Shown here in pieces: positions 2,828 to 63,601 of a stretch of 64,000 nt of DNA; within the stretch, counting starts at the first letter, position 1; every line of letters begins with the position of its first letter. The stretch covers positions 2,120,501 to 2,184,500 of the forward strand of contig NC_015496.1 in NCBI RefSeq assembly GCF_000212355.1, given 5' to 3'. The position numbers were made by a program, and so were the translations under genes. The notes below the pieces were generated by a model. The model saw only the letters and a program-made list of their open reading frames with translations, made no database searches and was not told the origin of the DNA. This stretch comes from Dokdonia sp. 4H-3-7-5. GTDB lineage: Bacteria; Bacteroidota; Bacteroidia; Flavobacteriales; Flavobacteriaceae.

Positions 2828-3197
2828 GCTTCACAAACTATTGTTTGTGTACAACGCAAACTCTGGCGCAATAAACGCCCTTTTAGACGCAGCTCATAAA
2901 GTGGTGCGTCCACAAACCTATCAATGTGCACTCTGTGAGATTACTCATGGAGTGTTTAAGGAAAAGGAGGAATGGTTACGCTTTCGCGAAAGCGTACATA
3001 CTCCATTAGAATTTCTTCACAAGGATGAGTTTTTAAAAGCTTATAAATCTAAGTGGTTGCCTAAGTATGAATTTCCTTTGGTGCTAGCAGTTACAGAAGC
3101 TGGTCTGGAGGTTGTAATAAGTGCAGATATATTTGCTGGTATTGCATCTTCTCAAGAACTTATTGAGCAAGTCAATAAAATTATAGAATCCTATTAA
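2781..3197 (+). CDS. Conserved-looking hypothetical protein downstream of gldC
   Basis: I do not recognise this protein. The open frame starts at ATG 2781 inside gldC, a 47-base overlap, but the first ~20 residues (rich in I, L and K) may be untranslated; TTG 2841 or GTG 2847 would give a product starting LFVYNANSG. It has two Cys in CALCEITHG (CxxC spacing), a central KEKEEWLRFRESVH segment and a C-terminal helix. The RFRES stretch is encoded by a copy of the TTTCGCGAAA palindrome. There is no signal peptide or clear membrane helix. Position suggests co-transcription with gldBC, but no function can be given. Confidence 0.7.
   Translation: MQIILQNTLTLKIKSKLHKLLFVYNANSGAINALLDAAHKVVRPQTYQCALCEITHGVFKEKEEWLRFRESVHTPLEFLHKDEFLKAYKSKWLPKYEFPLVLAVTEAGLEVVISADIFAGIASSQELIEQVNKIIESY
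2977..2996. repeat. TTTCGCGAAA palindrome, copy 1 (coding)
   Basis: A perfect 20-bp palindrome, TACGCTTTCGCGAAAGCGTA, lies inside the gene downstream of gldC. It is read there as L-R-F-R-E-S-V. Confidence 0.95.
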
Positions 3198-3209
3198 TCG
3201 ACCTAGTTA

Positions 3210-3821
3210 TTAGTAACCCGGCTTTAGGTTTTCATTGAGGTCTTCTATGTAGCCTAAAATTTCATCTTGACCATCACCATGAGAAGCGCTGCTCACAAAG
3301 TATTTAGGAAATTCCCACCATACACCATCAAGCATAATCTTTTTGTAGACTTCTATATTACGTTCTAGTGCTTGAGGACGTAGCTTATCTGCTTTGGTGA
3401 AAATGATAGAAAATGGAATCTCTTTTTCTCCGAGATATTCCATAAATTCCATATCTATTTTTTGAGGCTCGTGACGACAATCTACAAGCACAAAGGCAGA
3501 GATCATTTGCTCGCGTTGCTCAAAATAATCTGTAATGAATTTTTGGAAGTATTTTTTATCTTTCTTAGATACACGAGCATATCCGTAGCCAGGTAAATCT
3601 ACGAGGTGCCAGTTTTCGTTAATCAAGAAGTGATTAATAAGCTGCGTCTTACCAGGTCTTCCAGATGTTTTGGCCAGACTCTTACGGTTAGTAAGCATAT
3701 TAATAAGCGAAGACTTTCCTACATTAGAACGGCCTATAAAGGCGTATTCCGGGATGCGAGTATTAGGGCACTTTGTGACTTCGGAGTTACTTACTACAAA
3801 AGAGGCAGACTTGATTTTCAT
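3210..3821 (-). CDS. engB: Ribosome biogenesis GTPase EngB/YsxC
   Basis: An essential circularly conserved small GTPase that helps assemble the large ribosomal subunit. All GTPase motifs are visible: G1 GRSNVGKSS (residues ~30-38), G3 DLPGYG, G4 TKAD and G5 SSAS. I use the ATG at 3821 (203 residues, MKIKSASFVV) and not the longer frame from 3869, because the family starts with this strand and a TAnnTTTG promoter element lies only 4 bases upstream of 3821, inside the longer frame. The stop is 12 bases from the convergent gene before it. Confidence 0.93.
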   Translation of the reverse strand: MKIKSASFVVSNSEVTKCPNTRIPEYAFIGRSNVGKSSLINMLTNRKSLAKTSGRPGKTQLINHFLINENWHLVDLPGYGYARVSKKDKKYFQKFITDYFEQREQMISAFVLVDCRHEPQKIDMEFMEYLGEKEIPFSIIFTKADKLRPQALERNIEVYKKIMLDGVWWEFPKYFVSSASHGDGQDEILGYIEDLNENLKPGY

Positions 3822-3825
3822 ATCG

Positions 3826-3833
3826 CAAAAATA
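3826..3833 (-). promoter_or_regulatory. Candidate -7 element abutting the engB start
   Basis: On the - strand TATTTTTG fits TAnnTTTG exactly and ends 4 bases before the engB ATG. Transcription would begin at or next to the start codon, so the mRNA would be leaderless. Confidence 0.5.
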
Positions 3834-4698: not shown

Positions 4699-4723
4699 AA
4701 AAGTGGTTAGTAATCGGTATAAG

Positions 4724-4823: not shown

Positions 4824-4839
4824 TGCTTTCGCGAAAGCA
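4824..4839. repeat. TTTCGCGAAA palindrome, copy 2 (intergenic)
   Basis: A perfect palindrome, TGCTTTCGCGAAAGCA, lies in the 315-bp gap between the hydrolase gene and mraZ, upstream of the MraZ boxes. Confidence 0.95.
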
Positions 4840-11392: not shown

Positions 11393-11410
11393 ACGCTTTC
11401 GCGAAAGCAT
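11393..11410. repeat. TTTCGCGAAA palindrome, copy 3 (intergenic)
   Basis: GCTTTCGCGAAAGC (11395-11408) fills most of the 25-base gap between the mraY stop and the murD start. Confidence 0.95.
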
Positions 11411-14064: not shown

Positions 14065-15139
14065 AGTCATATTATCTGGAGGAGGAACAGGAGGTCATAT
14101 CTATCCTGCTATTGCTATTGCAAAGGAAATCCAGCGCCGTCATCCTGACGCGCAATTTCTATTTGTAGGAGCTAGTGATCGTATGGAGATGGAAAAAGTA
14201 CCCCAAGCAGGCTTTGAGATAGAAGGGTTGTGGATTGCTGGAATACAGCGCAAGCTCACGGTAGATAATCTTATGTTTCCATTTAAGCTCATTAGTAGCT
14301 TGATGAAATCTCGTAAAATCATTAAGAAATTTAAGCCAGATGTTGTGATAGGTACTGGCGGATTTGCAAGTGGGCCATTGCTTAAGATGGCTACCATTGC
14401 AGGGATACCAGCAGTGATTCAAGAGCAAAATAGCTATGCAGGTATTACAAATAAACTGTTAGGTAAGTCTGTGAAGAAAGTATGTGTGGCATATGATGAT
14501 ATGCAGCGCTTTTTCCCATCAGTGCATATTGTGAAGACAGGAAATCCTGTTCGTGCAGATTTATTAGATATAGAAAGTAAACGTAGTACCGCTTTCGCGA
14601 AATATGATTTGTCTCACAGTTCAAAAGTGGTATTAATTATAGGAGGAAGTCTAGGTGCAAAGGCTATAAATGAATTGATAGAGAAGCAACTCCCATTTTT
14701 TAAACGAAAAGGAGTCCAGGTTTTATGGCAAACAGGTAAGCTATATTACGATAAATACAAGCATCATCAGGCAGATGGTGTTCAGGTGATGGCATATATC
14801 GATCAGATGGATATGGCTTATGCAGCTGCAGATATTATTATATCTAGAGCTGGAGCAGGGTCTGTATCTGAGTTATGCATTGTAGGAAAGGCGACTATTT
14901 TTATTCCCTCTCCAAACGTTGCCGAAGATCACCAGACTAAAAATGCGCAAGCTATCGAGAAGACGGGTGCTGCAATTTTAATAGCAGAAAAAGACCTCGA
15001 TAAAAAATTTGAGCTTGTTTTTAAGGGACTCCTCAACGATGAAAAAGTTTGCTTTGAGCTAGGAAGAAAGATAAAAACACTTGCATTACCAAATGCCACA
15101 GCAGATATTGTGGATGAGGTAGAGCAATTATTGAAATAA
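14051..15139 (+). CDS. murG: Lipid II synthase MurG
   Basis: Adds GlcNAc to lipid I on the inner face of the cytoplasmic membrane. The N-terminal loop [15 protein letters not shown] (residues ~10-24) and the C-terminal UDP-GlcNAc motif [11 protein letters not shown] are diagnostic. Its 362 residues match the family. The start is GTG 14051, overlapping ftsW by 14 bases. A copy of the TTTCGCGAAA palindrome sits in the reading frame and is read as TAFAKYD. Confidence 0.95.
14591..14602. repeat. TTTCGCGAAA palindrome, copy 4 (coding, in murG)
   Basis: The core is intact but one arm is shorter (GCTTTCGCGAAAT). It is read in murG as A-F-A-K. Confidence 0.85.
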
Positions 15140-15193: not shown

Positions 15194-16546
15194 ATGAAAC
15201 CTTTAAAAGACATACAGAACATTTACTTCATCGGTATCGGTGGGATAGGTATGAGCGCACTAGCTTTGTACTTCCATAGGGAGGGGAAGAATGTGGCGGG
15301 TTATGATAAAACGCCTTCAGATGTTACTGCAGCTTTGCAAGACTCTGGTATTAAGGTTCATTTTGAAGATAAAAAAGAGGGGATTAATAGTTCGTTTACT
15401 AGTAAGGAAGATACCCTAGTGGTGTTTACTCCTGCCGTTCCTAAAATGATGGGAGAGCTAGTATATTTTCACGAAAGCGGATTTATGCTTAAAAAACGTG
15501 CAGAAGTGCTTGGTATGATTGCAAATCAAACCTTCTCGCTTGCTGTTGCGGGAACGCATGGTAAAACGACTACTTCTAGTATTTTGGGTCATCTACTTGC
15601 GGCATCCGGAGCCCCGGTAACTGCATTTATAGGTGGTATTACAAATAATTATAATGGTAATTTAATCCAAAAAGGAAGTGACGTTGTTGTGGTGGAGGCA
15701 GATGAGTTTGATCGCTCATTCCTACAGCTTAGACCAGATATTCTCTGTGTGACTTCGATGGATGCAGATCATCTTGATATTTATGAAGATGAGGCAGACC
15801 TTATCGCTACGTTTCAAGAATTTGGGGCACTAGCTCCAGAGAATAAGCGTTTTGTAAAAAACGGACTTCCACTTGCTGGAAATACGGTTGGTATTGAAGA
15901 GGATGCAGATTATACTGCGCAGCGAGTACGCATAGAGAATGGCGCTTATGTCTTTGACTTGCATTACCCAGGCGGTGTTTTAGAGAATTTACAATTTAGC
16001 CTGCCAGGAAGACATAATCTTTTTAATGCTGTAGCTGCATTAGGGATGGCGCTATCGTATGGCAGTCCTAAAGAAGAATTGGTAGAAGCACTAGCGAGTT
16101 ATTCAGGTGTTAATCGCCGATTTACATACCGTATCCAGAAAGAAGATATGGTGATAATAGATGATTATGCGCATCACCCTACAGAAATTGCTGCGGTACA
16201 TCAAAGTGTAAGAGAGATGTATCCAGAGGAGAGTGTGCTAGCTATTTTTCAGCCACACTTATTTAGTAGAACAAAAGATTTTATGAACGATTTTGCAGTA
16301 GCGCTTTCTCATTTTGATGAAGTAGCACTGCTGGATATTTACCCAGCAAGAGAAGAGCCTATTGCTGGTATTACTAGCGAGGTATTGCTTAGTGAAATGA
16401 CGCTTTCGCGAAAGCAAATCATACAGAAAAATGAGCTTACTGATTTAGTGAAAGATACAAATCACAAAATTGTTGTGATGATGGGGGCTGGAGATATAGG
16501 TGTAGAGATTTTAAAAGTAACGAAAGAATTGCGTGGTGAAGGTTAA
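15194..16546 (+). CDS. murC: UDP-MurNAc:L-alanine ligase MurC
   Basis: First amino-acid ligase of murein precursor synthesis. It has the start FIGIGGIGMSALAL, the ATP loop GTHGKTTTS (near residues 119-127), the central DADHLDIYED and the C-terminal DDYAHHPTEI and FQPHLFSRT, all family marks. Its length of 450 is usual. The palindrome TTTCGCGAAA is read within it as TLSRKQ near residue 405. It overlaps ftsQ by 14 bases. Confidence 0.95.
   Translation: MKPLKDIQNIYFIGIGGIGMSALALYFHREGKNVAGYDKTPSDVTAALQDSGIKVHFEDKKEGINSSFTSKEDTLVVFTPAVPKMMGELVYFHESGFMLKKRAEVLGMIANQTFSLAVAGTHGKTTTSSILGHLLAASGAPVTAFIGGITNNYNGNLIQKGSDVVVVEADEFDRSFLQLRPDILCVTSMDADHLDIYEDEADLIATFQEFGALAPENKRFVKNGLPLAGNTVGIEEDADYTAQRVRIENGAYVFDLHYPGGVLENLQFSLPGRHNLFNAVAALGMALSYGSPKEELVEALASYSGVNRRFTYRIQKEDMVIIDDYAHHPTEIAAVHQSVREMYPEESVLAIFQPHLFSRTKDFMNDFAVALSHFDEVALLDIYPAREEPIAGITSEVLLSEMTLSRKQIIQKNELTDLVKDTNHKIVVMMGAGDIGVEILKVTKELRGEG
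16402..16415. repeat. TTTCGCGAAA palindrome, copy 5 (coding, in murC)
   Basis: GCTTTCGCGAAAGC read in murC as L-S-R-K. Confidence 0.95.
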
Positions 16547-18766: not shown

Positions 18767-20782
18767 ATGAGTACGACACAATTTGATAACATCACATTTG
18801 ATCTACCTAAAAACCAAAGTCACGTAATTAAAGTGATAGGTGTAGGTGGGGGAGGTAGTAACGCTATTAACCATATGTTCCAGCAGGGAATAAATGGGGT
18901 AGATTTTGTAATCTGTAACACAGATGCACAAGCACTAGAAAATAGTACAGTACCTAATAAGATACAACTGGGAGTAGGTCTTACAGAAGGTCTTGGTGCT
19001 GGAGCAAATCCAGATGTGGGAGAGCAAGCGGCTATAGAGAGTGAGATGGATATCAAGCAAATGCTTGGTACTAACACAAAGATGATATTTATTACTGCCG
19101 GAATGGGCGGTGGTACAGGAACGGGTGCTGCGCCAGTTATTGCCAAAATGGCTCGTGAGCTTGATATCCTAGTCGTAGGGATTGTCACGATACCATTCCA
19201 GTTTGAAGGTAAAATGCGTAATGAGCAAGCTCAAAAAGGAGTAGATAGACTTCGTGCCCAGGTAGATTCACTTATTGTTATTAATAATAACAAGCTCCGT
19301 GAGGTTTACGGTAATCTTGGTTTTAAAGCAGGATTTAGTAAAGCAGATGAAGTTCTTGCAACCGCTTCACGTGGTATTGCAGAGGTAATTACACATCACT
19401 ATACACAAAACATCGATTTACGTGATGCAAAAACAGTTTTAAGTAAATCAGGAACAGCTATTATGGGTAGCGCTACTGCTAGTGGTACAAGTCGTGCAAA
19501 CGAGGCGATATCAAAAGCGCTTGACTCTCCATTGCTTAACGATAATAAAATTACTGGAGCTAAGAATGTATTATTACTCATAGTTTCTGGTGGTGATGAG
19601 ATTACAATAGACGAGATAGGAGAAATTAACGATCACATTCAAGCAGAGGCAGGTCACAGCGCAAACATCATCATGGGTGTAGGTGAAGATGACTCTCTAG
19701 GCGATGCAATTTCAGTAACGATTATCGCTACAGGATTTAATGCAGAGCAGCAGAATGAGATTGTAAACGTAGAGACTAAGAAGATTATACATACACTAGA
19801 AGAGGAGCAGAGAGCACAGCAAGATTTGATGCCAGATGCTACTGTAGAGATTCCTCCTTCGGCTCCTGTTGCTCCACAGGCACCGGCACCACCTAAGAAA
19901 ATAGTGCATACACTTGATCTTGATGAAATAGAGGAAAAGAAGCCTACCGCTTTCGCGAAAGCGCCCGTAAAAGAAATTACAAGGCAACAAGCTGTTCCAG
20001 AGCAGGCTCCTAAAGTTGAGCCAGTACAGCCTCCTGCACAGCAATATAGCATGGATATAGTTCCTACTACAGATGTAATTAAGAATATTACAGTTGTGTA
20101 TGATGAGATACTTCTAGAGAATGAAGCAGATTTTGAAATCATAGATACTACAGTGCGTCATGAAGCGACTAGAGTGGAGCATAAAGAGCCAGAAAATAAT
20201 GGAATGTTATTTTTTGATATGCCATTAACGACAGAAGCTCCAATGGAGGAAGATGAGAAGCCTATCATGTTTGATCTTGATGACACTACAGCATCTATTG
20301 AGGTGAAGGAGCCTATAGAAATTGTACCTGTAACTGAGCATACTAATGACGGAGAGACTAGATATAGTCTTGAGGATTACATGGAGCTTGAAGAGACACT
20401 TTCTAATGCATCTAGTGATGATGATGAAAACGACATTGAAGAAGAAACTATTGTTTTTGAAACAAAAACTGTTGCTCCTCAACAAAAACGTGAAGATGAA
20501 AATGCAGAGATAGACCCTATGAATAGTCCTATCTCACAGATTCTTATAGACAGAGCTTCTGAGCGTAAGCGCAAGATGAAAGAATTCAATTATAAATTTC
20601 GCACAAACCAGTCTCGTATTGAGGAGATAGAAAAGCAACCTGCGTACAAGCGTATGGGGATTGATCTAGAAGAAACACCAGCAAAGGATGGAAGTTTATC
20701 TAGAACATCACTTTCTACAGATGATAATGATGAAATTCAATTGAGAAGTAATAACTCATTTTTACATGATAATGTAGATTAA
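18767..20782 (+). CDS. ftsZ: Division tubulin FtsZ with long C-terminal extension
   Basis: Forms the Z-ring. The GTPase domain (residues ~15-330) shows GGGGSNAINHM, the tubulin signature GGGTGTGAAP (near 114-123) and the T7-loop region DEIGEINDHI. After it comes a ~270-residue Pro-, Glu- and Thr-rich linker, an arginine/lysine-rich helix (ERKRKMKEFNYKFR) and QPAYKRMGIDLEE, which resembles the Bacteroidota C-terminal peptide. Another ~30 residues follow. At 671 residues it is far longer than the E. coli protein (383). A TTTCGCGAAA palindrome in the linker is read as PTAFAKAP. Confidence 0.97.
   Translation: MSTTQFDNITFDLPKNQSHVIKVIGVGGGGSNAINHMFQQGINGVDFVICNTDAQALENSTVPNKIQLGVGLTEGLGAGANPDVGEQAAIESEMDIKQMLGTNTKMIFITAGMGGGTGTGAAPVIAKMARELDILVVGIVTIPFQFEGKMRNEQAQKGVDRLRAQVDSLIVINNNKLREVYGNLGFKAGFSKADEVLATASRGIAEVITHHYTQNIDLRDAKTVLSKSGTAIMGSATASGTSRANEAISKALDSPLLNDNKITGAKNVLLLIVSGGDEITIDEIGEINDHIQAEAGHSANIIMGVGEDDSLGDAISVTIIATGFNAEQQNEIVNVETKKIIHTLEEEQRAQQDLMPDATVEIPPSAPVAPQAPAPPKKIVHTLDLDEIEEKKPTAFAKAPVKEITRQQAVPEQAPKVEPVQPPAQQYSMDIVPTTDVIKNITVVYDEILLENEADFEIIDTTVRHEATRVEHKEPENNGMLFFDMPLTTEAPMEEDEKPIMFDLDDTTASIEVKEPIEIVPVTEHTNDGETRYSLEDYMELEETLSNASSDDDENDIEEETIVFETKTVAPQQKREDENAEIDPMNSPISQILIDRASERKRKMKEFNYKFRTNQSRIEEIEKQPAYKRMGIDLEETPAKDGSLSRTSLSTDDNDEIQLRSNNSFLHDNVD
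19948..19963. repeat. TTTCGCGAAA palindrome, copy 6 (coding, ftsZ linker)
   Basis: CGCTTTCGCGAAAGCG, perfect over 16 bp, read as T-A-F-A-K-A in the disordered linker of FtsZ. Confidence 0.95.
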
Positions 20783-23610: not shown

Positions 23611-23624
23611 GCTTTCGCGAAAGC
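23611..23624. repeat. TTTCGCGAAA palindrome, copy 7 (intergenic)
   Basis: GCTTTCGCGAAAGC between the OmpA-family gene stop and tRNA-Arg. Confidence 0.95.
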
Positions 23625-23708: not shown

Positions 23709-23722
23709 CGAATAAATAGAAT

Positions 23723-26681: not shown

Positions 26682-28880
26682 ATGATAAGTTCTATTTGGC
26701 GATATAGCCACTTTTTACTGACAGCAGTTTCGGCATTATTTTTATTGCTGGCTTCAATAACTGGTGCTATTTTAGCCCTTGAACCCGCTACTTTAATCAC
26801 GCAGCCTTATGCAGTAGTTGATCTCGATAATACCAGCCTTTCAAGTACTATAAAAGCCTTAGAAAATAAATATCAAGAGGTATTAGAGATAGAAAAAACA
26901 GCAGAAAACTTTGTAACTGCCAGTGTAGTTACACGCGATAATGAAAATAGACAGATTTATGTCCATCCAAAAACTGGAGTAGCGCTAGGAAATGTAGAGA
27001 AACAATCAGTCTACTTTAATTATGTAACCAATCTACACCGTTCTTTATTTTTAAAAACCATAGGACGTGTGTTTGTAGGAGTAGTTTCATTCTTGCTCTG
27101 TTTGATTGCGTTTACTGGTTTTTTCTTATTAGCACAACGTCAGGGTGGTTTTAAAAATTGGTTTAATAGAGTCCAAGAAACGAATATAGGACAACGCTAT
27201 CACGTGATATTGGGACGTTGGTTTTTACTCCCTATAATTATTATAGGAACTACTGGAGTGTATCTTTCGGTAGAGAAATTTTCTTTGACTCCAGAAACTC
27301 AAATTTCTCATAATTGGAATGCAACTCCTACAACAGGATTGCAAGAGTTTTCTACTTCAGAAATCCCCTTATTTAAGAATCTAAAATTAAGTGAGGTTAG
27401 AAAAGTTATCTTTCCTTTTTCAGAGGATGTAGCCGATTATTATGAGTTAGAACTCAGAGATAGAGAGTTGCTAGTCCATCAATATACTGGTGAGGTGGTA
27501 AGTGAGGTGCAATATCCATTTGCCTATTTTGTCTCGAAGTGGAGTATGTTACTGCATACAGGACAGGGAAATATATTTTGGTCAGTGATTTTGTTCATTG
27601 CAAGTTTAAGCATACTGTTTTTCATGTATTCAGGCTTAAGAATGAGTATAAAACGAATTCAGAAGACTAAGCCAATCTTCTCAACATTCCATAAAGATGA
27701 AGCCCAATATATCTTGCTTGTAGGGTCTGAAACTGGAAGTACATACGCTTTCGCGAAAGCGTATTATAAAGCACTAATTGCAGTAGGTGTTAAGGTACAC
27801 CTTGCTACATTAAACGATTACAATACTTATAAAAAAGCCACACATCTTATAGTGTTTACAGCAACATATGGTGATGGTGATGCGCCGAGTAACGCACGAA
27901 AGTTTAAGGATTTATTGCAGAAGATTGAGCCTAGTAGTAATATGAAGTTTGCTGTTGTTGGATTTGGTTCTTTACGTTATACACACTATTGTGAGTTTGC
28001 AATCCAAGTAAATGATGCATTGAGTGCACATCCATCTTTTAGTAAATTACAAAGCTTAGAAAAGATAAATGAGCAATCACCGGTGTCTTTTACTAATTGG
28101 ATAACGAGATGGAATCGATTAACGGGAATGAATCTTGAGGTAGTTTTACCAATTATAAGCGAAAAAGAGGCTAAATTTTTAAAATTTGAGGTTGTATCAC
28201 GTAGCAACCTAAATGTGGATGAAACCACAATCTTGAGATTAAAATCAAAGAATAAAGTGGATTTTCAGTCGGGTGACTTACTGAATGTAATACCTGGCAA
28301 GGGTATAAAGGCCCGACAATATTCTATAGCACGCATAGATGCTGATATTTATCTAAGTGTAAAACAACACACTAAGGGTGTTTGTTCCCATTATTTAAGT
28401 AACTTAGAAACTGGAGTAAATATTAAAGCTAGTATTGAAAGGAATCCATACTTTCATCTTCCTGAAAAAGCATCGTCAGTTTATATGATTGCAAATGGAA
28501 CTGGGATAGCACCCTTTTTAGGAATGATCATAAATGAGAGGGGAAATATACCCATACGACTACTTTGGGGTGGTAGAACCTTGGCTTCCTTTGATTGTTA
28601 TGAAGCTATTTTAAATGCGAAGTTACCAGAAAGAAACGACTTCAAATACAATCTTGCATTATCGCAAGAAGGTGAAAAAATTTACGTTCAAGATGTTATA
28701 AAGCATCGAGAAAAGGAAGTTGGACAAGCCTTAAAAGATGGATGCGTTTTTATGCTATGCGGCTCTATGGCTATGCAGCATTCAGTATTAGATACACTAG
28801 AAGAAATAGCACAAAAGGAACTGAAACAGCCGTTAAGTGATTTTGAAAATAATGGTCAACTCCTAACAGACTGTTATTAA
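26682..28880 (+). CDS. PepSY membrane protein fused to flavodoxin and FNR-type reductase
   Basis: A 732-residue chimera. The N-terminal half (~1-330) is a PepSY-associated membrane domain with about four membrane helices. A flavodoxin domain follows (~342-480) with the FMN loop GSETGSTYAFAKAYY and TATYGDGDAP. The C-terminal ferredoxin-NADP reductase part (~500-732) has the FAD motif ARQYSIA, GVCSHYLS and the NADPH motif ANGTGIAPFLGM. The layout is like the alpha subunit of sulfite reductase on a membrane anchor, so I infer it passes NADPH electrons across the membrane, perhaps to ferric iron. The palindrome TTTCGCGAAA encodes AFAKA right after the FMN loop. Confidence 0.87.
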   Translation: MISSIWRYSHFLLTAVSALFLLLASITGAILALEPATLITQPYAVVDLDNTSLSSTIKALENKYQEVLEIEKTAENFVTASVVTRDNENRQIYVHPKTGVALGNVEKQSVYFNYVTNLHRSLFLKTIGRVFVGVVSFLLCLIAFTGFFLLAQRQGGFKNWFNRVQETNIGQRYHVILGRWFLLPIIIIGTTGVYLSVEKFSLTPETQISHNWNATPTTGLQEFSTSEIPLFKNLKLSEVRKVIFPFSEDVADYYELELRDRELLVHQYTGEVVSEVQYPFAYFVSKWSMLLHTGQGNIFWSVILFIASLSILFFMYSGLRMSIKRIQKTKPIFSTFHKDEAQYILLVGSETGSTYAFAKAYYKALIAVGVKVHLATLNDYNTYKKATHLIVFTATYGDGDAPSNARKFKDLLQKIEPSSNMKFAVVGFGSLRYTHYCEFAIQVNDALSAHPSFSKLQSLEKINEQSPVSFTNWITRWNRLTGMNLEVVLPIISEKEAKFLKFEVVSRSNLNVDETTILRLKSKNKVDFQSGDLLNVIPGKGIKARQYSIARIDADIYLSVKQHTKGVCSHYLSNLETGVNIKASIERNPYFHLPEKASSVYMIANGTGIAPFLGMIINERGNIPIRLLWGGRTLASFDCYEAILNAKLPERNDFKYNLALSQEGEKIYVQDVIKHREKEVGQALKDGCVFMLCGSMAMQHSVLDTLEEIAQKELKQPLSDFENNGQLLTDCY
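27744..27763. repeat. TTTCGCGAAA palindrome, copy 8 (coding, flavodoxin domain)
   Basis: A 20-bp perfect palindrome, TACGCTTTCGCGAAAGCGTA, identical to copy 1. It is read as Y-A-F-A-K-A-Y directly after the FMN-binding loop. Confidence 0.95.
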
Positions 28881-29616: not shown

Positions 29617-30410
29617 AAAACTCACAAACATATATAGATTCAGGGGTTCTCGAGCTCTTCGTATATGGAACACTTCCTGAGGAGGAAATGATGGAGATTG
29701 CTCGTGATGTATCTCAAGATACAGCATTGCTAGAAGAGGTAATAGAGATCGAAAACCATTTAATGCATCTAGCTAAGGCAGCCGCTCCTGGTGAGCCTAA
29801 GCATGTAAGTGTTCTAAGAAAGTATTTAAACGATAATGAAACTAAAGTAATCCCGCTTTCGCGAAAGCAAACTCCTATCGTTGCATTCATGGGATGGGCC
29901 GCTGCAGTATTATTGCTTGTGGGTATAGGTTACTTATATACTGAAAATAACAAGCTTGAAGAGCGTATCGTTGATACGGAGAGAGAATTGTTGCTTCAAG
30001 AAGGTAAAACACAAGTTGCAGAAACGAACCTCGATCAAACCAGAGGATTACTTAATGTAATACGTAAACAAGATTTAATAGCAGTGCCGCTAGGAGCTCA
30101 AGCTATTGCACCAGAAGCTTACGCATCTGTGTATTGGGATAAGAAAAGTGGTAAAGCGTATATAGATGTAAAAGGATTACCAGAACCTCCTGAAGGGAAG
30201 GTTTATCAAGTGTGGTCTCTTACCTTAGAACCTCTTACGCCTACGAGCATAGGAGTTCTTGATCAATATGATGCTAGCGGAAATCAAATCTTTGAGCTAA
30301 GTAATCCTAATGAGTCTGAAGCCTTTGGTATTACCTTAGAGCCAGAAGGAGGAAGTGCTTCTCCTACACTTGAGCAACTATATACATTAGGAGTGGTTGC
30401 ATCATCTTAA
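29613..30410 (+). CDS. RskA-family anti-sigma factor
   Basis: A 265-residue membrane anti-sigma factor. The N-terminal domain (1-80, LELFVYGTLPEEEMMEIARDV) should bind the sigma factor, one membrane helix lies at ~87-107, then a coiled coil (VDTERELLLQEGKTQ), then the RskA C-terminal domain outside the membrane (VYWDKKSGKAYIDVKGLP ... YQVWSLTLEP ... PTLEQLYTLG). Family members release their sigma factor on regulated proteolysis. A TTTCGCGAAA palindrome just before the membrane helix reads PLSRKQ. A strong terminator follows the gene. Confidence 0.92.
   Translation: MKNSQTYIDSGVLELFVYGTLPEEEMMEIARDVSQDTALLEEVIEIENHLMHLAKAAAPGEPKHVSVLRKYLNDNETKVIPLSRKQTPIVAFMGWAAAVLLLVGIGYLYTENNKLEERIVDTERELLLQEGKTQVAETNLDQTRGLLNVIRKQDLIAVPLGAQAIAPEAYASVYWDKKSGKAYIDVKGLPEPPEGKVYQVWSLTLEPLTPTSIGVLDQYDASGNQIFELSNPNESEAFGITLEPEGGSASPTLEQLYTLGVVASS
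29855..29868. repeat. TTTCGCGAAA palindrome, copy 9 (coding, anti-sigma gene)
   Basis: GCTTTCGCGAAAGC read as L-S-R-K just before the membrane helix. Confidence 0.95.
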
Positions 30411-34353: not shown

Positions 34354-34367
34354 GCTTTCGCGAAAGC
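34354..34367. repeat. TTTCGCGAAA palindrome, copy 10 (intergenic)
   Basis: GCTTTCGCGAAAGC in the 192-bp gap before the BI-1 gene. The rest of that gap is AT-rich with no other clear feature. Confidence 0.95.
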
Positions 34368-39443: not shown

Positions 39444-39788
39444 AGGGTTGTAATGAACTAGGGTTTGTCTATTATAACTGTTATACGCAGCAAAGTTGCA
39501 AAATGTTACAAAAAACTTAAAGTTTTTTTTAAATGATTTTTAAGTTATAGCTTATGCAACTTGTTAAATTGGCATAATTATCTATTAATTAATCATTTGC
39601 GATTTTTTAATAATCCTTACATAGCGTGATTTATGAGGTGCTAGCTATTATTTCTGAGAATGTGTTATTATTAAGCGTTACGTGTGAATAGTTACGCTTT
39701 CGCGAAAGCGTAATTTATACCCTTAAAACAATCGTATATAGTTTGTGATTATTCCATTTGAAAGTTTTTAAACTACTGCGCTATTAAA
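39444..39788. other. rpoD-tatA divergent gap
   Basis: Contains a short A/T-rich hairpin at about 39509-39529 (AAAAACTT/AAGTTTTT) and the palindrome at 39692-39713. Otherwise I see no gene. Confidence 0.6.
39692..39713. repeat. TTTCGCGAAA palindrome, copy 11 (intergenic, longest)
   Basis: A 22-bp perfect palindrome: the core GCTTTCGCGAAAGC flanked by TTAC and GTAA. It is the longest copy in the window. Confidence 0.96.
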
Positions 39789-42017: not shown

Positions 42018-42031
42018 GCTTTCGCGAAAGC
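42018..42031. repeat. TTTCGCGAAA palindrome, copy 12 (intergenic)
   Basis: GCTTTCGCGAAAGC, 9 bases upstream of the ACMSD-like start codon. Confidence 0.95.
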
Positions 42032-42549: not shown

Positions 42550-43329
42550 CTACAAGCTTTTTGTGCGTCCTCCATCTACAGGTACATTAATTCCATTAAT
42601 AAAAGAAGCTGCTTCACTAGCGAGAAAAACAATTGCATTTGCTACCTCCTCAGGTTTGGCAAAACGTTTTGCTGGTGATGCATTTGCCATTGTCTGTGAA
42701 ACTTCTTCTATAGATTTTCCAGTCTTTTTTGCTTTATTTTCTATGATCTCAGAGAGTCTGCCAGTAGCGGTTGCGCCAGGAAGTACGTTGTTTACGGTGA
42801 TGCCGTATTGCCCTAGCTCATTTGCCATTGTTTTACTCCAGTTTGCCACGGCACCGCGTATCGTGTTACTCACGCCTAGACCATCTAGTGGTTGTTTTAC
42901 AGAAGTAGAAATCACGTTAATGATACGTCCATATCCTTCGGCTTTCATCCCTGGGAGTACGGTTTGTGTTAATAGGTGATTGGTTTGTAGGTGTTGTGTA
43001 AACGCTTTCGCGAAAGCGGTAACATCTGCATCCACAATAGGTCCACCTGGAGGGCCACCAGTGTTATTGATTAATATGTGATACACATTGCCCGTTGCCG
43101 AAACAGCAGCTGCCACCGCCTGCGGATTTGTAAAATCTGCAACCACGTAGCTGTGCTTTTGTGAACCGTTATTAGGTAACTGTGCGATAACGTTTTTGAG
43201 CTTCTCTTCTGTACGAGCAGCAAGGGTTACGTTTGCACCTTCTTCTGCTAGACCCATTGCGGTTGCTAGTCCGATCCCTGCTGTAGAGCCACAGACGAGT
43301 GCATTTTTATTAGTTAGGTTTAGTTTCAT
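42550..43329 (-). CDS. SDR-family oxidoreductase lacking the usual catalytic Tyr-Lys
   Basis: A 259-residue short-chain dehydrogenase with the cofactor loop GSTAGIGLATA (residues ~14-24), VADFTN, the NNTGGPPGG stretch and INVISTSV with Ser. Where YxxxK is expected there is GVSNTIRGAV, so Tyr becomes Ser and Lys becomes Arg. This variant occurs in a known SDR subgroup whose chemistry is unclear. It is in the middle of the kynurenine operon, abutting DUF1648 and 57 bases after the aldehyde dehydrogenase. The palindrome is read as TAFAKAFT. Confidence 0.88.
   Translation of the reverse strand: MKLNLTNKNALVCGSTAGIGLATAMGLAEEGANVTLAARTEEKLKNVIAQLPNNGSQKHSYVVADFTNPQAVAAAVSATGNVYHILINNTGGPPGGPIVDADVTAFAKAFTQHLQTNHLLTQTVLPGMKAEGYGRIINVISTSVKQPLDGLGVSNTIRGAVANWSKTMANELGQYGITVNNVLPGATATGRLSEIIENKAKKTGKSIEEVSQTMANASPAKRFAKPEEVANAIVFLASEAASFINGINVPVDGGRTKSL
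43003..43018. repeat. TTTCGCGAAA palindrome, copy 13 (coding, SDR gene)
   Basis: CGCTTTCGCGAAAGCG, perfect over 16 bp, read on the - strand as T-A-F-A-K-A. Confidence 0.95.
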
Positions 43330-43386: not shown

Positions 43387-44829
43387 TTAATTATATTTTA
43401 TGCAAACATTCTTTGCTTCGGTAAAAAACCGGAGCGCTTCAAAGCCGCCTTCACGACCTACGCCGCTAGCTTTCACTCCGCCAAAGGGTGTGCGCAAATC
43501 TCGATTCATCCACGTATTCACCCAGACAATGCCAGCTTCAAGTGCATTGCTTAAACGCATTGTTCTGTCAAGTTGCTGAGTCCAAACTGTTGCAGAGAGT
43601 CCGTATTTTGTGCCGTTTGCTAATGTAAGTGCTTCTTCCTCGGTGTCAAAAGGCATTATAGTCACCACAGGTCCAAAAATCTCTTCTTGATTGAGTTTAC
43701 AGTCATTACTGTCCACCTCAATAACCGTAGGTTCTAGATAATAGCCATTCTCATATCCTGGAACGGTAACTCGCTTACCTCCGCAAAGTACGGTACCGCC
43801 GTAAGCTTGTGCATTGTGAATATAGTCTTCTACTTTCTCAAGATGCGATTTTGAAACGAGTGCTCCTAGATCTGTGTTTTCTTGTGGTGGATGCCCTACG
43901 ACTAACTCCTTAACTTTTGAAATGAAATCACTTTTAAATCGGTCATAGATAGATCGCTCTACAAAAATGCGACTCCCACAGAGACAGATTTGCCCTTGAT
44001 TTGCAAAGGAGCTTCTCACGGTTGTGGCAAGCATATCTTCATAATTACAATCGGCAAAAATGAGGTTCGGGTTTTTACCACCTAGTTCTAGTGATAATTT
44101 TTTAAACATAGGTGCACACGTTTTTGCAAGATGAGCTCCCGTTTTTGTACCTCCCGTAAAACTTATCGCTTTAATATCTTTATGTTCTAAAATAGCTTGT
44201 CCCGTTGTGTGTCCCAGTCCGTGTACAATATTGAGAACACCAGGAGGAAGTCCAGCCTCTGTACAAATCTCACCAAGAAGGTAAGCCGTCATAGGAGTGA
44301 CTTCACTAGGTTTTGCAATCACGCAATTGCCAGCGGCTATTGCGGGAGCGATTTTCCAGGTAAAGAGATACAGTGGTAAATTCCACGGACTTATGCATCC
44401 CACAACACCTATGGGTTTACGCAGGGTAAAATTCATTGCGTTCATTCCCACACTCTCGTGACTCTCTGCCGAAAACTGAGTGATCGCATTTGCAAAAAAC
44501 CGAAAGTTACTCGCCGCCCTCGGGATATCTACAGTCATTGCTAGTGATACCGGTTTCCCATTATCCCGACTTTCGGCTTGAGCAAGTTCTTCAAGTCTAG
44601 CTTCAATGCCACTTGCAATGTTCATCAAGATGCGACTGCGCTCATCAAGTGTGGTGCTGGACCACTGCGGGAATGCCGCTTTCGCGAAAGCGGTAGCTTC
44701 CTCAATATCTTGCGCGCTACTATTAGGAATCTGCCCATATATCTCCCCAGAAGCTGGCTCATAATTATCTAGCCAGTCATTTGATGCTGGGTTTTTATAG
44801 TCGCCGTTTATGTAGTTTTTGATGTTCAT
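43387..44829 (-). CDS. Aldehyde dehydrogenase, probable 2-aminomuconate-6-semialdehyde dehydrogenase
   Basis: A 480-residue NAD(P)-dependent aldehyde dehydrogenase with catalytic Glu in LELGGKNP, catalytic Cys in QGQICLCGSRIF, the cofactor loop FTGGTKTGAHLA and the C-terminal PFGGVKASGVGREGG. It is closest in feel to the 2-hydroxymuconic/2-aminomuconic semialdehyde group, and the operon with ACMSD and a RidA-type deaminase supports 2-aminomuconate semialdehyde as substrate. It abuts the RidA-like gene. A palindrome near the N-terminus is read as ATAFAKAAF. Confidence 0.88.
   Translation of the reverse strand: MNIKNYINGDYKNPASNDWLDNYEPASGEIYGQIPNSSAQDIEEATAFAKAAFPQWSSTTLDERSRILMNIASGIEARLEELAQAESRDNGKPVSLAMTVDIPRAASNFRFFANAITQFSAESHESVGMNAMNFTLRKPIGVVGCISPWNLPLYLFTWKIAPAIAAGNCVIAKPSEVTPMTAYLLGEICTEAGLPPGVLNIVHGLGHTTGQAILEHKDIKAISFTGGTKTGAHLAKTCAPMFKKLSLELGGKNPNLIFADCNYEDMLATTVRSSFANQGQICLCGSRIFVERSIYDRFKSDFISKVKELVVGHPPQENTDLGALVSKSHLEKVEDYIHNAQAYGGTVLCGGKRVTVPGYENGYYLEPTVIEVDSNDCKLNQEEIFGPVVTIMPFDTEEEALTLANGTKYGLSATVWTQQLDRTMRLSNALEAGIVWVNTWMNRDLRTPFGGVKASGVGREGGFEALRFFTEAKNVCIKYN
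44676..44693. repeat. TTTCGCGAAA palindrome, copy 14 (coding, aldehyde dehydrogenase gene)
   Basis: An 18-bp perfect palindrome (core flanked by CC and GG) read on the - strand as A-T-A-F-A-K-A. Confidence 0.95.
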
Positions 44830-47360: not shown

Positions 47361-48622
47361 TACAGTATCTTTTTGAGTCGTTCTACCATTTCAAATACGT
47401 CTTGATAACTATTGTAAAGCGGTGCTGGAGCGACGCGTATTACATCTGGCTCACGCCAGTCTGAGATGACTCCTGCTTCGATTAGTTTTTTGTGTAAACT
47501 CTTGTCGGCATTTTTTACTTGAATACTTAGTTGGCACCCACGTTCAGACGGATTACTAGGTGTGATAATAGCGATGTGCTCATTGTTGAGTTCGTTTACT
47601 AAGAACTCCAGATAGCCAGTGAGTTTTTTAGATTTTGCACGTATGTTACTCATACCAGCTTCCTCAAAAATATCTAAGCTCGCTTTTACCGCTGCCATAC
47701 TGAGGATAGGAGGATTTGATAATTGCCAGCCTTCGGCAGTTGGTATTGGGTCAAAGCCTTTGCGCATATTAAAACGTGTGTCTTTGTTTTGTCCCCACCA
47801 GCCCGTAAAGCGCTGTATGTTTTTATCTGTATGATGGCGCTCGTGTACAAAGCAACCACCCAGACTTCCTGGGCCGCTGTTGAGGTATTTATAAGTACAC
47901 CACACGGCAAAATCTGCACCGCTCTCGTGTAAGTCTGGCATAATATTACCCACTCCGTGTGCAAGGTCAAAGCCTACTTTGCTGCCGTTGTTGTGACCTA
48001 AGTCAGTGATTTTTTTAATAGGGTAGCACTGTCCAGAATAATAGTTTGTGTTACCAATTAAAAGAAGCGCAACGCTGTCGCCGTGTTCTTTTACAAGTGC
48101 TTCTAGGTCTTCATAACGGCATAATTCTTCTCCTTCTCGAGGTTGCCAAAGTATAAGGCTCGTCTCTGGATCGTATCCACGCTGGCGTATCTGACTTTCT
48201 ACCGCATACTTATCTGACGGGAAAGCATCACTTTCTATAATTATTTTATGACGTGATGGCGTAGGATTGTAAAACGAGACCATCATCAAGTGAAGGTTTG
48301 TCGTGAGGGTGTTCATTATCACTACCTCACCAGGTTTTGCACCTACGATGTGTGCCATAGGTTTTGCGAGTTCTTCGTGATAAGACATCCACGGAGTTTC
48401 TTCTTTAAAATGCCCTTCAACACCCAGATCTGCCCAGTCATTGAGTTCTTGCTCGATGTATTGTGCGACAGATTTTGGCTGGCACCCTAGGCTGTTTCCG
48501 CAGAGGTAAATAAGTTCGTTATCCTCCTTATCTACGGGTATGTAGAAGTGATTACGGTACTCTTTAAGGGGATCTTTTTCGTCTTGCGTTTTCGCGAAAG
48601 CGAGATTATTTTCATACACCAT
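47360..48622 (-). CDS. kynU: Kynureninase
   Basis: A PLP enzyme that cleaves 3-hydroxykynurenine to 3-hydroxyanthranilate and alanine. The 420-residue protein has the PLP Lys in WCTYKYLNSGPGSLGG, GFDLAHGVGN with the cofactor Asp, and ESDAFPSDKYAVESQ. It is the first gene of the - strand operon. Near the N-terminus NLAFAKTQ is encoded by an altered copy of the palindrome. No 3-hydroxyanthranilate dioxygenase or tryptophan dioxygenase gene lies in the window. Confidence 0.94.
   Translation of the reverse strand: MVYENNLAFAKTQDEKDPLKEYRNHFYIPVDKEDNELIYLCGNSLGCQPKSVAQYIEQELNDWADLGVEGHFKEETPWMSYHEELAKPMAHIVGAKPGEVVIMNTLTTNLHLMMVSFYNPTPSRHKIIIESDAFPSDKYAVESQIRQRGYDPETSLILWQPREGEELCRYEDLEALVKEHGDSVALLLIGNTNYYSGQCYPIKKITDLGHNNGSKVGFDLAHGVGNIMPDLHESGADFAVWCTYKYLNSGPGSLGGCFVHERHHTDKNIQRFTGWWGQNKDTRFNMRKGFDPIPTAEGWQLSNPPILSMAAVKASLDIFEEAGMSNIRAKSKKLTGYLEFLVNELNNEHIAIITPSNPSERGCQLSIQVKNADKSLHKKLIEAGVISDWREPDVIRVAPAPLYNSYQDVFEMVERLKKIL
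48590..48599. repeat. TTTCGCGAAA palindrome, copy 15 (coding, kynU)
   Basis: The core is intact but one arm differs (CGTTTTCGCGAAAGCG). It is read as L-A-F-A-K. Confidence 0.85.
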
Positions 48623-49554: not shown

Positions 49555-50712
49555 ATGAACTCTCTGTTTCTCATACTATCTAGAAAAAGATACTTTGCAC
49601 CCGCTTGGGTTTTTGCTTCACTCAATATTATGATAGGTACTTGGGTGCTTTACATCCCGAGAGTAAAAGAAAAGCTAGGGATAGATGATGGAGATTTGGG
49701 GGTAGCTTTATTTTGTATGGGATTAGGAAGTCTTGTGTCACTTACGATGGCTTCTCGCATTATAAAAAGTATGGGAGTAGGTAAGGCTACGGTGGTAGGT
49801 GTGATTATATTCTCACTACTATTTTTAATGCCCTTAATTGCTCCGTCGTATATTGTATTATGTGTTTCTTTATTTTGTGTGGGACTGTTTTCTTGCTTTA
49901 CAGATATAGCAATGAATGCCCTAGTCTCAGATATAGAAACCGAAGACGAGGTGCATATTATGAGTTCGTCACACGGTTTCTTTTCTATAGGAGGAGCAAT
50001 TGCCGCAGTGATAGGTTATTTTATAATAGACCTTGTTAAGGTGCCTGTTTATCACAGTATGGGAGCTGCAATTCTGGTCATTGTCACAAATTTGTGGCTT
50101 TGCAAAAGTTATATAGCTCATAGAACCCCTATAGATGACAGTCACGGGACACTTAATTTCAATTTACTCAAACCGCTGCTAGGTCTTACCATTATAGCTC
50201 TTATAATTATGGGCAGCGAAGGAGCCATTGAGCAGTGGAGTAAACTATATCTAGAAGATATTGTGCAAGTAACAACCGAAAAAACTGCAGGAATGGGGTT
50301 TTTACTGTTCTCATTGTTTATGGCGTTGGGAAGATTCTTTGGTGATGGAGTGAGCAAACGTTTTGGCTCCATTAAAATTATTATAGGCGGTGCACTTTTT
50401 GCGGTTGTAGGCTACCTAGCGGTACTCTCGGCTATTACATTTGTCACTCTTTTAGGATTTGCGATTATAGGTTTAGGTTTTTCTGTAATTATTCCTGAGT
50501 TGCTTAGACTGGCTGGTAAGGCAAAGGGAGTGAACAGTGCAGATGGCATTTCATTTGTTGCGGGAGCTGGTTTTGTAGGGTTTCTTGCGAGTCCGCCACT
50601 GGTGGGATTTTTAGCAGATTTTTCAAGCCTTAAACTGAGCTTTACAGTGCTAGGTGCTGGAGCATTTATAGCGATAATTATCGGGGTTGCGCTTTCGCGA
50701 AAGCGTAATTAA
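49555..50712 (+). CDS. Major facilitator superfamily transporter
   Basis: A 385-residue protein with about twelve membrane helices in two halves. The loop between helices 2 and 3 (MASRIIKSMGVGKAT) and the matching loop in the second half (GDGVSKRFGSIK) are MFS marks. The layout resembles sugar or small-molecule MFS permeases, but the substrate is unknown. Its last residues ALSRKRN are encoded by a TTTCGCGAAA palindrome. The promoter appears to lie directly in front of the ATG. Confidence 0.88.
   Translation: MNSLFLILSRKRYFAPAWVFASLNIMIGTWVLYIPRVKEKLGIDDGDLGVALFCMGLGSLVSLTMASRIIKSMGVGKATVVGVIIFSLLFLMPLIAPSYIVLCVSLFCVGLFSCFTDIAMNALVSDIETEDEVHIMSSSHGFFSIGGAIAAVIGYFIIDLVKVPVYHSMGAAILVIVTNLWLCKSYIAHRTPIDDSHGTLNFNLLKPLLGLTIIALIIMGSEGAIEQWSKLYLEDIVQVTTEKTAGMGFLLFSLFMALGRFFGDGVSKRFGSIKIIIGGALFAVVGYLAVLSAITFVTLLGFAIIGLGFSVIIPELLRLAGKAKGVNSADGISFVAGAGFVGFLASPPLVGFLADFSSLKLSFTVLGAGAFIAIIIGVALSRKRN
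50691..50704. repeat. TTTCGCGAAA palindrome, copy 16 (coding, end of MFS gene)
   Basis: GCTTTCGCGAAAGC forms the last codons of the MFS gene, read as A-L-S-R-K. Confidence 0.95.
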
Positions 50713-55494: not shown

Positions 55495-55508
55495 GCTTTC
55501 GCGAAAGC
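55495..55508. repeat. TTTCGCGAAA palindrome, copy 17 (intergenic)
   Basis: GCTTTCGCGAAAGC between the hypothetical gene and the mdh terminator. Confidence 0.95.
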
Positions 55509-59478: not shown

Positions 59479-59492
59479 GCTTTCGCGAAAGT
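59479..59492. repeat. TTTCGCGAAA palindrome, copy 18 (intergenic)
   Basis: Core intact, last base of the outer arm changed (GCTTTCGCGAAAGT), between gyrB and the DinB-fold gene. Confidence 0.85.
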
Positions 59493-62087: not shown

Positions 62088-62138
62088 ATGTGTGTTGCTA
62101 GATTGTGTTCTAAGTTGGTAGTGATAAGCTTGTAATTG

Positions 62139-63491
62139 TTACACCAACCCCTTAACCTCATCAAAATCTAACCCACCATAATTGCCGCTACTCATAAGTA
62201 ATACCGCTTTGTTTTTTAGCCCTTGGTCAAAGAGAAACTTTTTAAAGTCGGCTGGATCTGTGTAGATGATGAGATCATCGCGTTCAAAGGCAGTTGCTAT
62301 TTGTTGCGCTGTGACAGATTCTAGTTTTTTGATTTCGACAGCGTGTGGAGAGTAGAATACCACAGCAATATCTGCGCTGTCCAAAGCACCTTTGTATTCG
62401 CTCAAAAATTCTGGATTAAGACTGCTGTAAGTGTGTAATTCTAGACACGCTATAAGCGTGCGGTCTGGATACTGCTCTTTTACAGCCGTAGTTGTAGCAC
62501 TTACTTTTGATGGGCTATGTGCAAAATCTTTGTAGATGACAGTGTCATTAGTTTCTGCTATTTTTTCTAGGCGTTTGCTAGCTCCTGAGAATGTAGCGAT
62601 GGCTTCATAAAAGTCTTCTTCTACCACACCCATGTGCTGGCAAATCCACTTGGCTCCTGCAAGGTTATTGAGGTTGTGTTTACCAAAAACTTCAATAGGC
62701 ATCGGTCCATCTGGAGTTTCTAGTAAAGTCTCTCCATCTTCAATGCTGTATGTTGGAGTTTCGTATGGATATTTTTTAATGTGTGCAGTGGCATTTTCTA
62801 CCACTTTCACGACATTTTCATCTTCTGTGTTGTAAATCATTGCACCACCATTGGTCATAGAATTTACAAAAATCTGAAACTGCTCCACATAGTTATCAAA
62901 CGTAGGGAATACGTTAATATGATCCCATGCAATACCGCTTAGTAGCGCAATGTTGGGCTTATATAGATGAAATTTAGGTCTGCGGTCTATTGGGCTACTT
63001 AAGTATTCATCACCTTCTAGTACCATAAAATCTGCATCATCTGTCATGCGCACCATGGTATCAAAGCCTTCTAGTTGCGCGCCTACCATATAGTCTACTT
63101 CTTTATCCCAATAATGCATGACATGCAAGATCATAGAAGTAATAGTAGTTTTACCATGAGAACCCCCTATAACGACACGAGTTTTGTTTTTGGCACGTTC
63201 ATATAAGTACTCGGGATATGAATATATGTTTAGTCCTAGCTCTTGTGCTTTTAAAAGCTCAGGGTTATCTTCCTTTGCATGCATTCCTAATATGACAGCG
63301 TCAAGATCTGCTGTTATTTTTTCTGGAAACCATCCAAATGCTTCAGGTAGCAATCCATACTTTTCAAGTCGGGATTTCGACGGGTCAAAGATAGTGTCAT
63401 CACTACCTGTAACCGTTTCTCCTTTATGATGTAATGCGAGTGCTAGATTGTGCATTGCTGCACCACCTATAGCGATAAAATGGATATTCAT
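62139..63491 (-). CDS. mpl: Murein peptide ligase Mpl
   Basis: Joins recycled L-Ala-D-Glu-meso-DAP tripeptide to UDP-MurNAc, saving murein peptide. It is a MurC relative: the opening HFIAIGGAAMHNLALAL, the ATP loop GGSHGKTTITS, a Mur central domain with ALLSGIAWDHINVFPTF and the C-terminal KDFAHSPSKV. GAAMHNLA instead of MurC's GIGMSALA, AWDHINVFPT and KDFAHSPSK are the Mpl-specific variants. The 450 residues match the family. It implies recycling of DAP-type peptides. Confidence 0.93.
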   Translation of the reverse strand: MNIHFIAIGGAAMHNLALALHHKGETVTGSDDTIFDPSKSRLEKYGLLPEAFGWFPEKITADLDAVILGMHAKEDNPELLKAQELGLNIYSYPEYLYERAKNKTRVVIGGSHGKTTITSMILHVMHYWDKEVDYMVGAQLEGFDTMVRMTDDADFMVLEGDEYLSSPIDRRPKFHLYKPNIALLSGIAWDHINVFPTFDNYVEQFQIFVNSMTNGGAMIYNTEDENVVKVVENATAHIKKYPYETPTYSIEDGETLLETPDGPMPIEVFGKHNLNNLAGAKWICQHMGVVEEDFYEAIATFSGASKRLEKIAETNDTVIYKDFAHSPSKVSATTTAVKEQYPDRTLIACLELHTYSSLNPEFLSEYKGALDSADIAVVFYSPHAVEIKKLESVTAQQIATAFERDDLIIYTDPADFKKFLFDQGLKNKAVLLMSSGNYGGLDFDEVKGLV

Positions 63492-63583
63492 ATTAACGTT
63501 GTCTTTAAAGTAAAAATAAGATTATACTATCAAACTACCATAAGAGAAGTCAGGTAATTAGTCATGGGTGTTTTGAGTTTTTC

Positions 63584-63601
63584 ACGCTTTCGCGAAAGCG
63601 T
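63584..63601. repeat. TTTCGCGAAA palindrome, copy 19 (intergenic)
   Basis: An 18-bp perfect palindrome (core flanked by AC and GT) between mpl and ftsY. Confidence 0.95.

Follow-up and report, generated by a model that had tools for sequence, protein, structure and literature searches.

A highly iterated perfect palindrome in Dokdonia and Nonlabens-like genomes, a candidate self-recognition signal for DNA uptake or recombination

Introduction

Why should one perfect palindrome recur, letter for letter, along a short stretch of a bacterial chromosome? The question was raised by positions 2,120,501 to 2,184,500 of contig NC_015496.1 of Dokdonia sp. 4H-3-7-5 (GCF_000212355.1), a stretch of 64,000 nt referred to below as the window. 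The word TTTCGCGAAA (hereafter the core) occurs there in 19 exact copies, whereas dinucleotide-preserving shuffles contain 0.02 on average and never more than 1. The full 14-mer GCTTTCGCGAAAGC accounts for 16 of the 19 copies, five are perfect palindromes of 18–22 bp, and nine lie in gaps between predicted genes. These counts agree with an earlier note made from the window alone, which had listed 19 cores, 16 full 14-mers with some copies reaching 18–22 bp, and nine intergenic copies; its positions were exact for 18 of the 19 cores, the first core starting at 2982 and not at 2981. The note called the palindrome "HIP-like" (HIP, highly iterated palindrome), which holds as a description since the motif is both palindromic and highly iterated. 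Its interpretation as a whole, which ranged over a DNA-binding protein, a methylase, a chromosome-organising system, DNA uptake and a mobile palindromic unit, is partly supported by the analysis reported here.

Abundance and distribution of the palindrome

The genome of the window (handled here as G000) is a single contig of 3,389,993 bases. The 14-mer was found in it 757 times, and the reversed control, which is the same pattern read backwards, was found 0 times. The genome-wide count, which the earlier note had proposed as a check, is thus not at chance level. In a family survey of 299 genomes drawn from a larger group, 61 carried at least one copy and only five carried more than 19: G000 (757), G206 (857), G242 (664), G010 (578) and G190 (408); the remaining genomes had 0–19 copies each. 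G206 belongs to the same genus as G000, G010 and G242 belong to a genus handled as g11, and G190 to a third genus. All 18 genomes of the window's genus carry the motif (369–905 copies each), as do all 23 genomes of g11 (288–857 copies each). In a phylum survey of 395 genomes, no genome apart from G000 had more than six copies. Two stretches from an uncultured Dokdonia bin are 95–97% identical to the window over 8–10 kb. The nearest named match suggests that g11 is a Nonlabens-like genus: Nonlabens ulvanivorans (L047) is 72% identical in this region to g11, 66% to G190 and 68% to the window, and has five sites in 21 kb. No report of this word in these bacteria was found among the open-access papers listed, judged by titles and abstract openings. 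The motif is real and very strong and, within the literature searched, unreported.

A GyrB tree of 30 hand-picked genomes placed the bearers in one clade (support 91/94). Because that clade also includes the low-copy genomes G087 (5 copies) and G144 (9 copies), a single origin followed by losses would be the simplest reading, on a one-gene tree with moderate support. When up to two mismatches to the 14-mer were allowed, G087 gave 11 matches vs. 9 in the control, mostly from one island. The same search in G144 gave 86 matches vs. 20 in the control, only 9 of them exact; the near-matches are perhaps relics of a lost system.

Anatomy of the element

The structure of the element was analyzed in 23 stretches of 20 kb from G000 together with the window, 524 kb in all (521.5 kb readable). 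This sample holds 158 cores, 113 of them full 14-mers, at a density of ∼0.3 cores per kb. The 14-mer is strict: 16 near-matches with one mismatch and 43 with two were found vs. 113 exact copies. In 30 of the 43 two-mismatch copies, one outer GC is changed to AT or TT as a pair, and therefore one arm may accept a second form while the core is nearly invariant. The hexamer TCGCGA occurs only 31 times outside the motif vs. 158 times inside it. The half-site CGCGAAAGCG forms a small inverted repeat of its own (CGC-GAAA-GCG), and each strand therefore holds two overlapping hairpin-forming words. We also considered a GNRA-like half-site; however, CGCGNAAGC variants are few (20 with N other than A, vs. 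275), and the idea was not built on.

The bias extends well beyond the palindrome. Read outward, the half-site is CGAAAGCG(T)AA in Dokdonia and CGAAAGCG(A/G)(A/G)A in g11 (G010 and G242), where A is found at +10 in 0.83–0.93 and at +16 in 0.79–0.85 of half-sites. G is scarce on the outward strand between about +10 and +28 (0.095 at positions 12–28 vs. 0.187 in the genome), and the strand running toward the dyad is correspondingly poor in C on each side, in genic and intergenic copies. Seven other palindromes and TCGCGA outside the motif served as controls and gave 0.17–0.21, the outside hexamers showing no flank bias. The depletion is present at both intergenic and coding copies and was also observed in G206, G010, G242 and G315; it is weak in G190. 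Since the G-poor outward flanks reach ∼28 bp on both sides, the element is ∼56 bp long and symmetric, with its two strands treated differently. At 74 in-gene copies the bias is similar on both sides relative to the gene, which indicates action at the DNA level and disfavours a function at the RNA level.

Placement, spacing and effect on encoded proteins

With a simple gene caller of our own (447 genes, 87.1% coding in the G000 sample), 79 of the 158 copies were intergenic vs. 12.9% of the bases (binomial P 3e-29), which bears out the intergenic enrichment noted earlier in the window. Tandem gaps of the two kinds held 2.0 and 1.2 copies per kb, convergent gaps 1.4 and divergent gaps, the poorest, 0.67. 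The earlier note saw no link to operon ends or starts; this is contradicted by the larger sample, where 39 of the 52 copies in tandem gaps lie closer to the 3′ end of the preceding gene (P 2e-4). The placement looks like avoidance of promoters more than regulation. An autoregulation idea, with close site pairs flanking the reader's gene, was dropped after seven open reading frame (ORF) maps, compared by ORF position and length only, shared no arrangement.

Motif sites avoid one another within ∼1 kb. Among the listed 14-mer sites, gaps shorter than 1 kb numbered 4 of 99 in G000 (20 expected), 4 of 99 in G299 (23 expected) and 5 of 93 in G315 (18 expected). For all cores in the sampled G000 stretches, three gaps were shorter than 500 bp vs. 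21 expected. Long-range regularity was significant in G000 and G299. No origin-terminus trend was visible by eye over 20 even G000 stretches, and three adjacent stretches at 2.36–2.72 Mb held only 3, 0 and 4 sites. One site-free 20-kb stretch (G000:C1:2530001-2550000, L070) carries two group II intron reverse transcriptases of equal length. In G299, two site-free stretches of ∼17 kb contain one very long ORF each, of 4431 and 5060 aa (L264, L265); giant genes seem to exclude the palindrome.

The motif also marks the proteins in which it lies. The 79 coding copies of the G000 sample are read as xFAKx (44), FRES (18) or LSRK (17). The peptide AFAKA occurs 38 times vs. 0.2 expected from amino-acid composition, and 34 of these occurrences use the core. 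Shuffling synonymous codons within genes reduced the coding cores from 79 to a mean of 2.2; this second check proposed by the earlier note likewise did not refute the observation. Because of the AFAKA excess and the loss of cores on synonymous shuffling, we conclude that selection targets the DNA word and reaches through to the protein, whose sequence the motif dictates. In FtsZ of two Dokdonia and two Nonlabens-type genomes the word lies past the conserved domains; FtsZ of G206, G242 and G190 lacks it.

Conservation between relatives

Two pairs of relatives were compared, a g11 pair that is 87% identical over aligned stretches and a Dokdonia pair at 76%. In the g11 pair the core is identical at 14 of the 15 aligned sites of one genome vs. 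0.40 of the 10-mers 20–120 bp away (P 3e-5). The corresponding figures for the Dokdonia pair are 9 of 10 vs. 0.10 for aligned 10-mers overall and 0.07 for those nearby (P 8e-9). As judged from these alignments, the cores are conserved well above their surroundings. With the sites of both genomes pooled, the g11 pair shares 14 of 17 places (15 of the 20 sites of the first genome being aligned, unaligned ones uncounted), and the three unshared places differ by one or two substitutions each. In the Dokdonia pair, gaps make several intergenic alignments impossible to judge, and single insertion cases are possible there.

Islands and phages

Local clusters of the motif were found in several genomes that lack the genome-wide word. 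A Pfam scan of ten proteins from the places in G078 and G111 returned RND, outer-membrane efflux, multicopper oxidase, P-type ATPase, integrase and RteC matches. Four other places share ORF lengths with these two and are therefore, in appearance, related metal-type islands. The cluster stretches, which were picked for holding copies, contain 38 copies in 271 kb; 40-kb samples taken elsewhere in six cluster-bearing genomes contained none. A pair of cores exactly 933 bp apart, both within one 405-aa ORF, recurs in G101, G215, G078 and G087 (L096, L099, L102, L104), and the same 933-bp spacing was seen from coordinates in G160. The 405-aa ORF of G078, the sole one scanned, is an outer membrane efflux protein. 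We read the clusters as islands that came from motif-bearing donors, the donor being inferred, and the word could trace transfer from Dokdonia or Nonlabens-type donors.

The motif is absent from two related phages that infect a Persicivirga (Nonlabens-type) host, each of which would be expected to hold 6.8 copies if the g11 density applied. Even the hexamer TCGCGA is absent from both phages (P12024S and P12024L; L306, L307), which might reflect avoidance. The picture for recently acquired DNA is mixed: the phages and the 20-kb stretch with intron reverse transcriptases are motif-free, but the metal-type islands of other genera carry the motif. A search of 2.9 million viral contigs returned 41 stretches with the 16-mer, which were left out of the evidence.

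Possible functions of the palindrome

The reading that we tentatively favour, as possible rather than probable, is that the motif is a genome-wide self-recognition signal akin to the DNA uptake sequences (DUS) of Neisseria and the uptake signal sequences (USS) of Haemophilus, with a predicted role in transformation or recombination. It is suggested by the exactness of the word, mutual exclusion, permissive placement, site conservation, restriction to a clade, presence in exchangeable islands and absence from the two phages tested. A dimeric or two-sided reader, presumably part of the natural-transformation or recombination machinery, would recognize the half-sites CGCTTTCG and CGAAAGCG joined at the dyad together with the G-poor outward flanks. 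Fragments that bear a site would be favoured in uptake or recombination. Selection and repeated exchange (molecular drive) would then keep, spread and space the sites at one per few kb, and sites would persist where the genome tolerates them. DUS and USS have been described as stringently conserved, permissively placed in the core genome and missing from recently acquired genes (passages of PMC2397512), and as significantly evenly spaced (passages of PMC1939737, citing Karlin). By analogy, the motif resembles the DUS of Neisseriaceae and the USS of Pasteurellaceae more than a methylation-linked HIP, a terminator or a mobile unit. It has, like them, hundreds to thousands of exact copies across a genus, strong site conservation, an intergenic excess with copies in genes as well, spacing less clumped than random, and absence from phage DNA (two phages in our case). 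It differs from them in being a perfect palindrome with two-sided strand-asymmetric flanks, in its occurrence in Bacteroidota, and in that the neighbouring genomes sampled gave no other core word. Natural transformation is known in Riemerella (passages of PMC7965970 and PMC8459023). R. columbina, a member of this wider group, prefers its own DNA; the authors listed only frequent A/T-rich words and tested none, and no signal was identified (passages of PMC7965970).

Since the dyad is combined with symmetric, strand-polar flanks, the data suggest a two-sided reader with strand-specific processing outward. A narrower proposal is that the palindrome is a strand-polarised DNA entry point, a kind of site not known to us in other systems, at which a two-sided reader on the dyad would start strand-specific processing outward both ways, whether as uptake, unwinding or resection. 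The strand ending at the dyad would have to be C-poor and the outgoing strand G-poor over ∼28 nt, and one site per few kb would make any conspecific fragment usable. We regard this specific form as unlikely.

A number of observations weigh against a self-recognition signal. The Dokdonia pair has only 10 of 19 places in common once the sites of both genomes are pooled (12 of the 34 sites of the first genome aligned, unaligned ones uncounted), and site turnover is therefore real. The overall spacing in G315 is regular at short range only (coefficient of variation 0.92, P 0.25). Absence from the two phages would also fit a chromosome-organising site. ComEC was detected in 14 of 14 genomes tested, bearers and non-bearers; the machinery is therefore plausible, and ComEC does not discriminate. 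No receptor for the motif was found, and among the open-access matches listed no title reports transformation of these genera. A search for other core words ("dialects") in 40-kb samples of 16 other genomes and in seven loci of 19–21 kb from public records of non-bearers gave none; words much sparser than this motif would be missed in 40 kb. Finally, the known DUS and USS are not palindromes, according to the passages of PMC1939737. The motif shares exact-word over-representation, site conservation and spacing with them and departs from them in this respect; a non-palindromic word describes the known cases and does not define the function.

The serious rival, which we consider somewhat unlikely, is a nucleoid or chromosome-organising protein that would wrap or oligomerise over ∼56 bp at each of ∼1,000 dispersed palindromes and so serve to fold, segregate or protect the chromosome. 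A perfect dyad with symmetric flanks suits a dimer, and the ∼28-bp reach of the bias on either side, mutual avoidance within ∼1 kb, a spread over the chromosome with no origin-terminus trend apparent by eye, and the rarity of sites in divergent promoter gaps are all in its favour. That spread is uneven in part, as at 2.36–2.72 Mb, and an organiser alone leaves the strand-asymmetric G-poor outward flanks unexplained. The protein would also have to be dispensable, as G087 and G144 lack the genome-wide motif and no replacement or iterated palindrome was seen in 105 kb and 65 kb of them, respectively. The binding sites of ParB and Noc are palindromes of 14–16 bp with TTTC...GAAA arms, and so are similar to the motif in length and arms. 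The motif has one base less between arm and dyad and is 10 to 100 times more numerous than is usual for parS or Noc sites, and its bearers have no extra ParB-family protein. The ParB helix-turn-helix domain PF17762 gave a single strong match per genome in the 14 genomes tested, bearers and non-bearers alike, and a second, weaker match over the cut-off only in G144 and G101, neither of which has the genome-wide motif. A parS- or Noc-type site was set aside, as no ParB/Noc-type paralogue that tracks the motif was found in the 14 genomes. On balance, the distribution fits DNA uptake slightly better than chromosome organisation.

The other explanations are less probable still. A HIP1-type site, made and maintained by an orphan methyltransferase and methyl-directed repair, appears quite improbable. 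Like HIP1 and the alternative HIPs, the motif is a palindrome iterated in coding and non-coding DNA, with differences between sites that are substitutions. In cyanobacteria these HIPs accompany matching methylases and are 5–8-mers (passages of PMC4390886), whereas the core element here is 14–16 bp long, has biased flanks out to 28 bp and a lower density (∼0.3 per kb); moreover, TCGCGA outside the motif is neither frequent nor flank-biased. Our methylase search covered two domain families, PF00145 and PF01555. Of the five bearers tested for the C5 methylase domain PF00145, G206 and G010 have it and G000, G242 and G190 lack it; the N4/N6 domain PF01555 exceeded the cut-off in G010 and G190 and not in G000, G206, G299 or G242. 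Since neither domain is common to all bearers tested, the methylase option of the earlier note is weakened. We give a similarly low probability to a recombination signal that acts in both directions, amounting to a pair of Chi-like sites set back to back. A helicase-nuclease arriving from either side, or a break at the dyad, would be controlled there, and the C-poor, G/T-richer strand ending at the palindrome would become a RecA substrate. The C-poor strand toward the dyad on both sides, in and between genes, is consistent with this, and so is the density, since E. coli has 1,008 Chi in ∼4.64 Mb (passages of PMC1939737). The resemblance thus lies in density and strand asymmetry. The motif, however, is a perfect dyad with an intergenic excess and short-range mutual exclusion. 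Known Chi sites are oriented and non-palindromic, and to our knowledge neither intergenic enrichment nor a 1-kb exclusion zone is a feature of Chi. Least probable, and to our mind very improbable, is a transcription terminator or RNA hairpin, or a mobile unit of the repetitive extragenic palindrome (REP) or bacterial interspersed mosaic element (BIME) kind. The 3′ preference of tandem-gap copies would suit a terminator, and the palindrome could fold as an RNA hairpin; half of the copies, however, are inside genes, and the 3′ or outward flank is A/C-rich with no T run. As to the mobile palindromic unit of the earlier note, all three unshared sites of the Nonlabens-type pair are substitutions with no insertions, and opposite two of the in-gene sites of the window a third Dokdonia (L039) has substituted, ungapped codons. 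Terminator and mobile unit are therefore disfavoured.

Individual copies in the window

The 19 copies differ in palindrome length and setting. The first core (2982..2991) is a 20-bp perfect palindrome. Intergenic copies are centred on the cores at 4827..4836 (16 bp), 11397..11406 (14 bp, with the dyad 11 and 14 bp from predicted genes), 23613..23622 (14 bp, 5′ of tRNA-Arg at 23635-23709), 34356..34365 (14 bp), 39698..39707 (22 bp), 42020..42029 (14 bp), 55497..55506 (14 bp), 59481..59490 (12 bp, 5′ of gyrB) and 63588..63597 (18 bp).

The copy at 14593..14602 consists of the 10-bp core only; it lies within the gene at 14051-15139 and is common to G206, and the third Dokdonia (L039) has a motif-free AMAK at the matching position. 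A 14-bp palindrome at 16404..16413, close to the end of a Mur ligase gene, is at the same site in G206 and missing from L039. The 16-bp palindrome at 19951..19960 encodes AFAKA in FtsZ, past the conserved domains, and the 22-bp palindrome at 27749..27758 is within a PepSY_TM/flavodoxin gene. The 14-bp copy at 29857..29866 encodes LSRK and is kept in G206. Further copies lie within the ORFs at 42550-43329 (43006..43015, 16 bp) and 43387-44829 (44680..44689, 18 bp), and at the end of the ORF at 49555-50712 (50693..50702, 16 bp). The copy within the ORF at 47360-48622 (48590..48599) is again the 10-bp core only, with GT for GC in the left arm.

Other repeated words

Dialect candidates in G040, G175 and G215 proved to be tandem repeats confined to single loci, and the dialect idea was therefore dropped. 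The repeat units are ∼240 bp and ∼219 bp in the flavobacterial genomes G040 and G175, and G215 has an array with 696-bp spacing (loci of this set, L169/L170, L161/L162 and L135/L136). G190 has a second palindrome, CCTGCCGGCAGG, with 5 copies in 180 kb vs. 0.01 expected (L153–L160, L095). With the main palindrome masked, the top 8-mer by z-score in the G000 sample was CTGCCGAA/TTCGGCAG, with 38 copies on both strands vs. 4.6 expected.

Significance

Passages of the papers cited above document that Neisseriaceae and Pasteurellaceae recognize self DNA sequence-specifically through a genomic word. The palindrome is a strong candidate for such a signal in marine genera; its word is exact and its half-site can be tested. 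If the proposal of a strand-polarised entry point is true, we know of no earlier sequence-specific signal for self-DNA recognition that has been defined in Bacteroidota. The strand-asymmetric flanks of ∼28 bp narrow the mechanism, in that they point to an enzyme treating the two strands differently. If the motif serves a chromosome organiser instead, that protein would have ∼1,000 sites and would shape protein sequences (AFAKA). Under both readings, the word may label DNA that once resided in these genera and thereby reveal recent transfers of islands to other genera.

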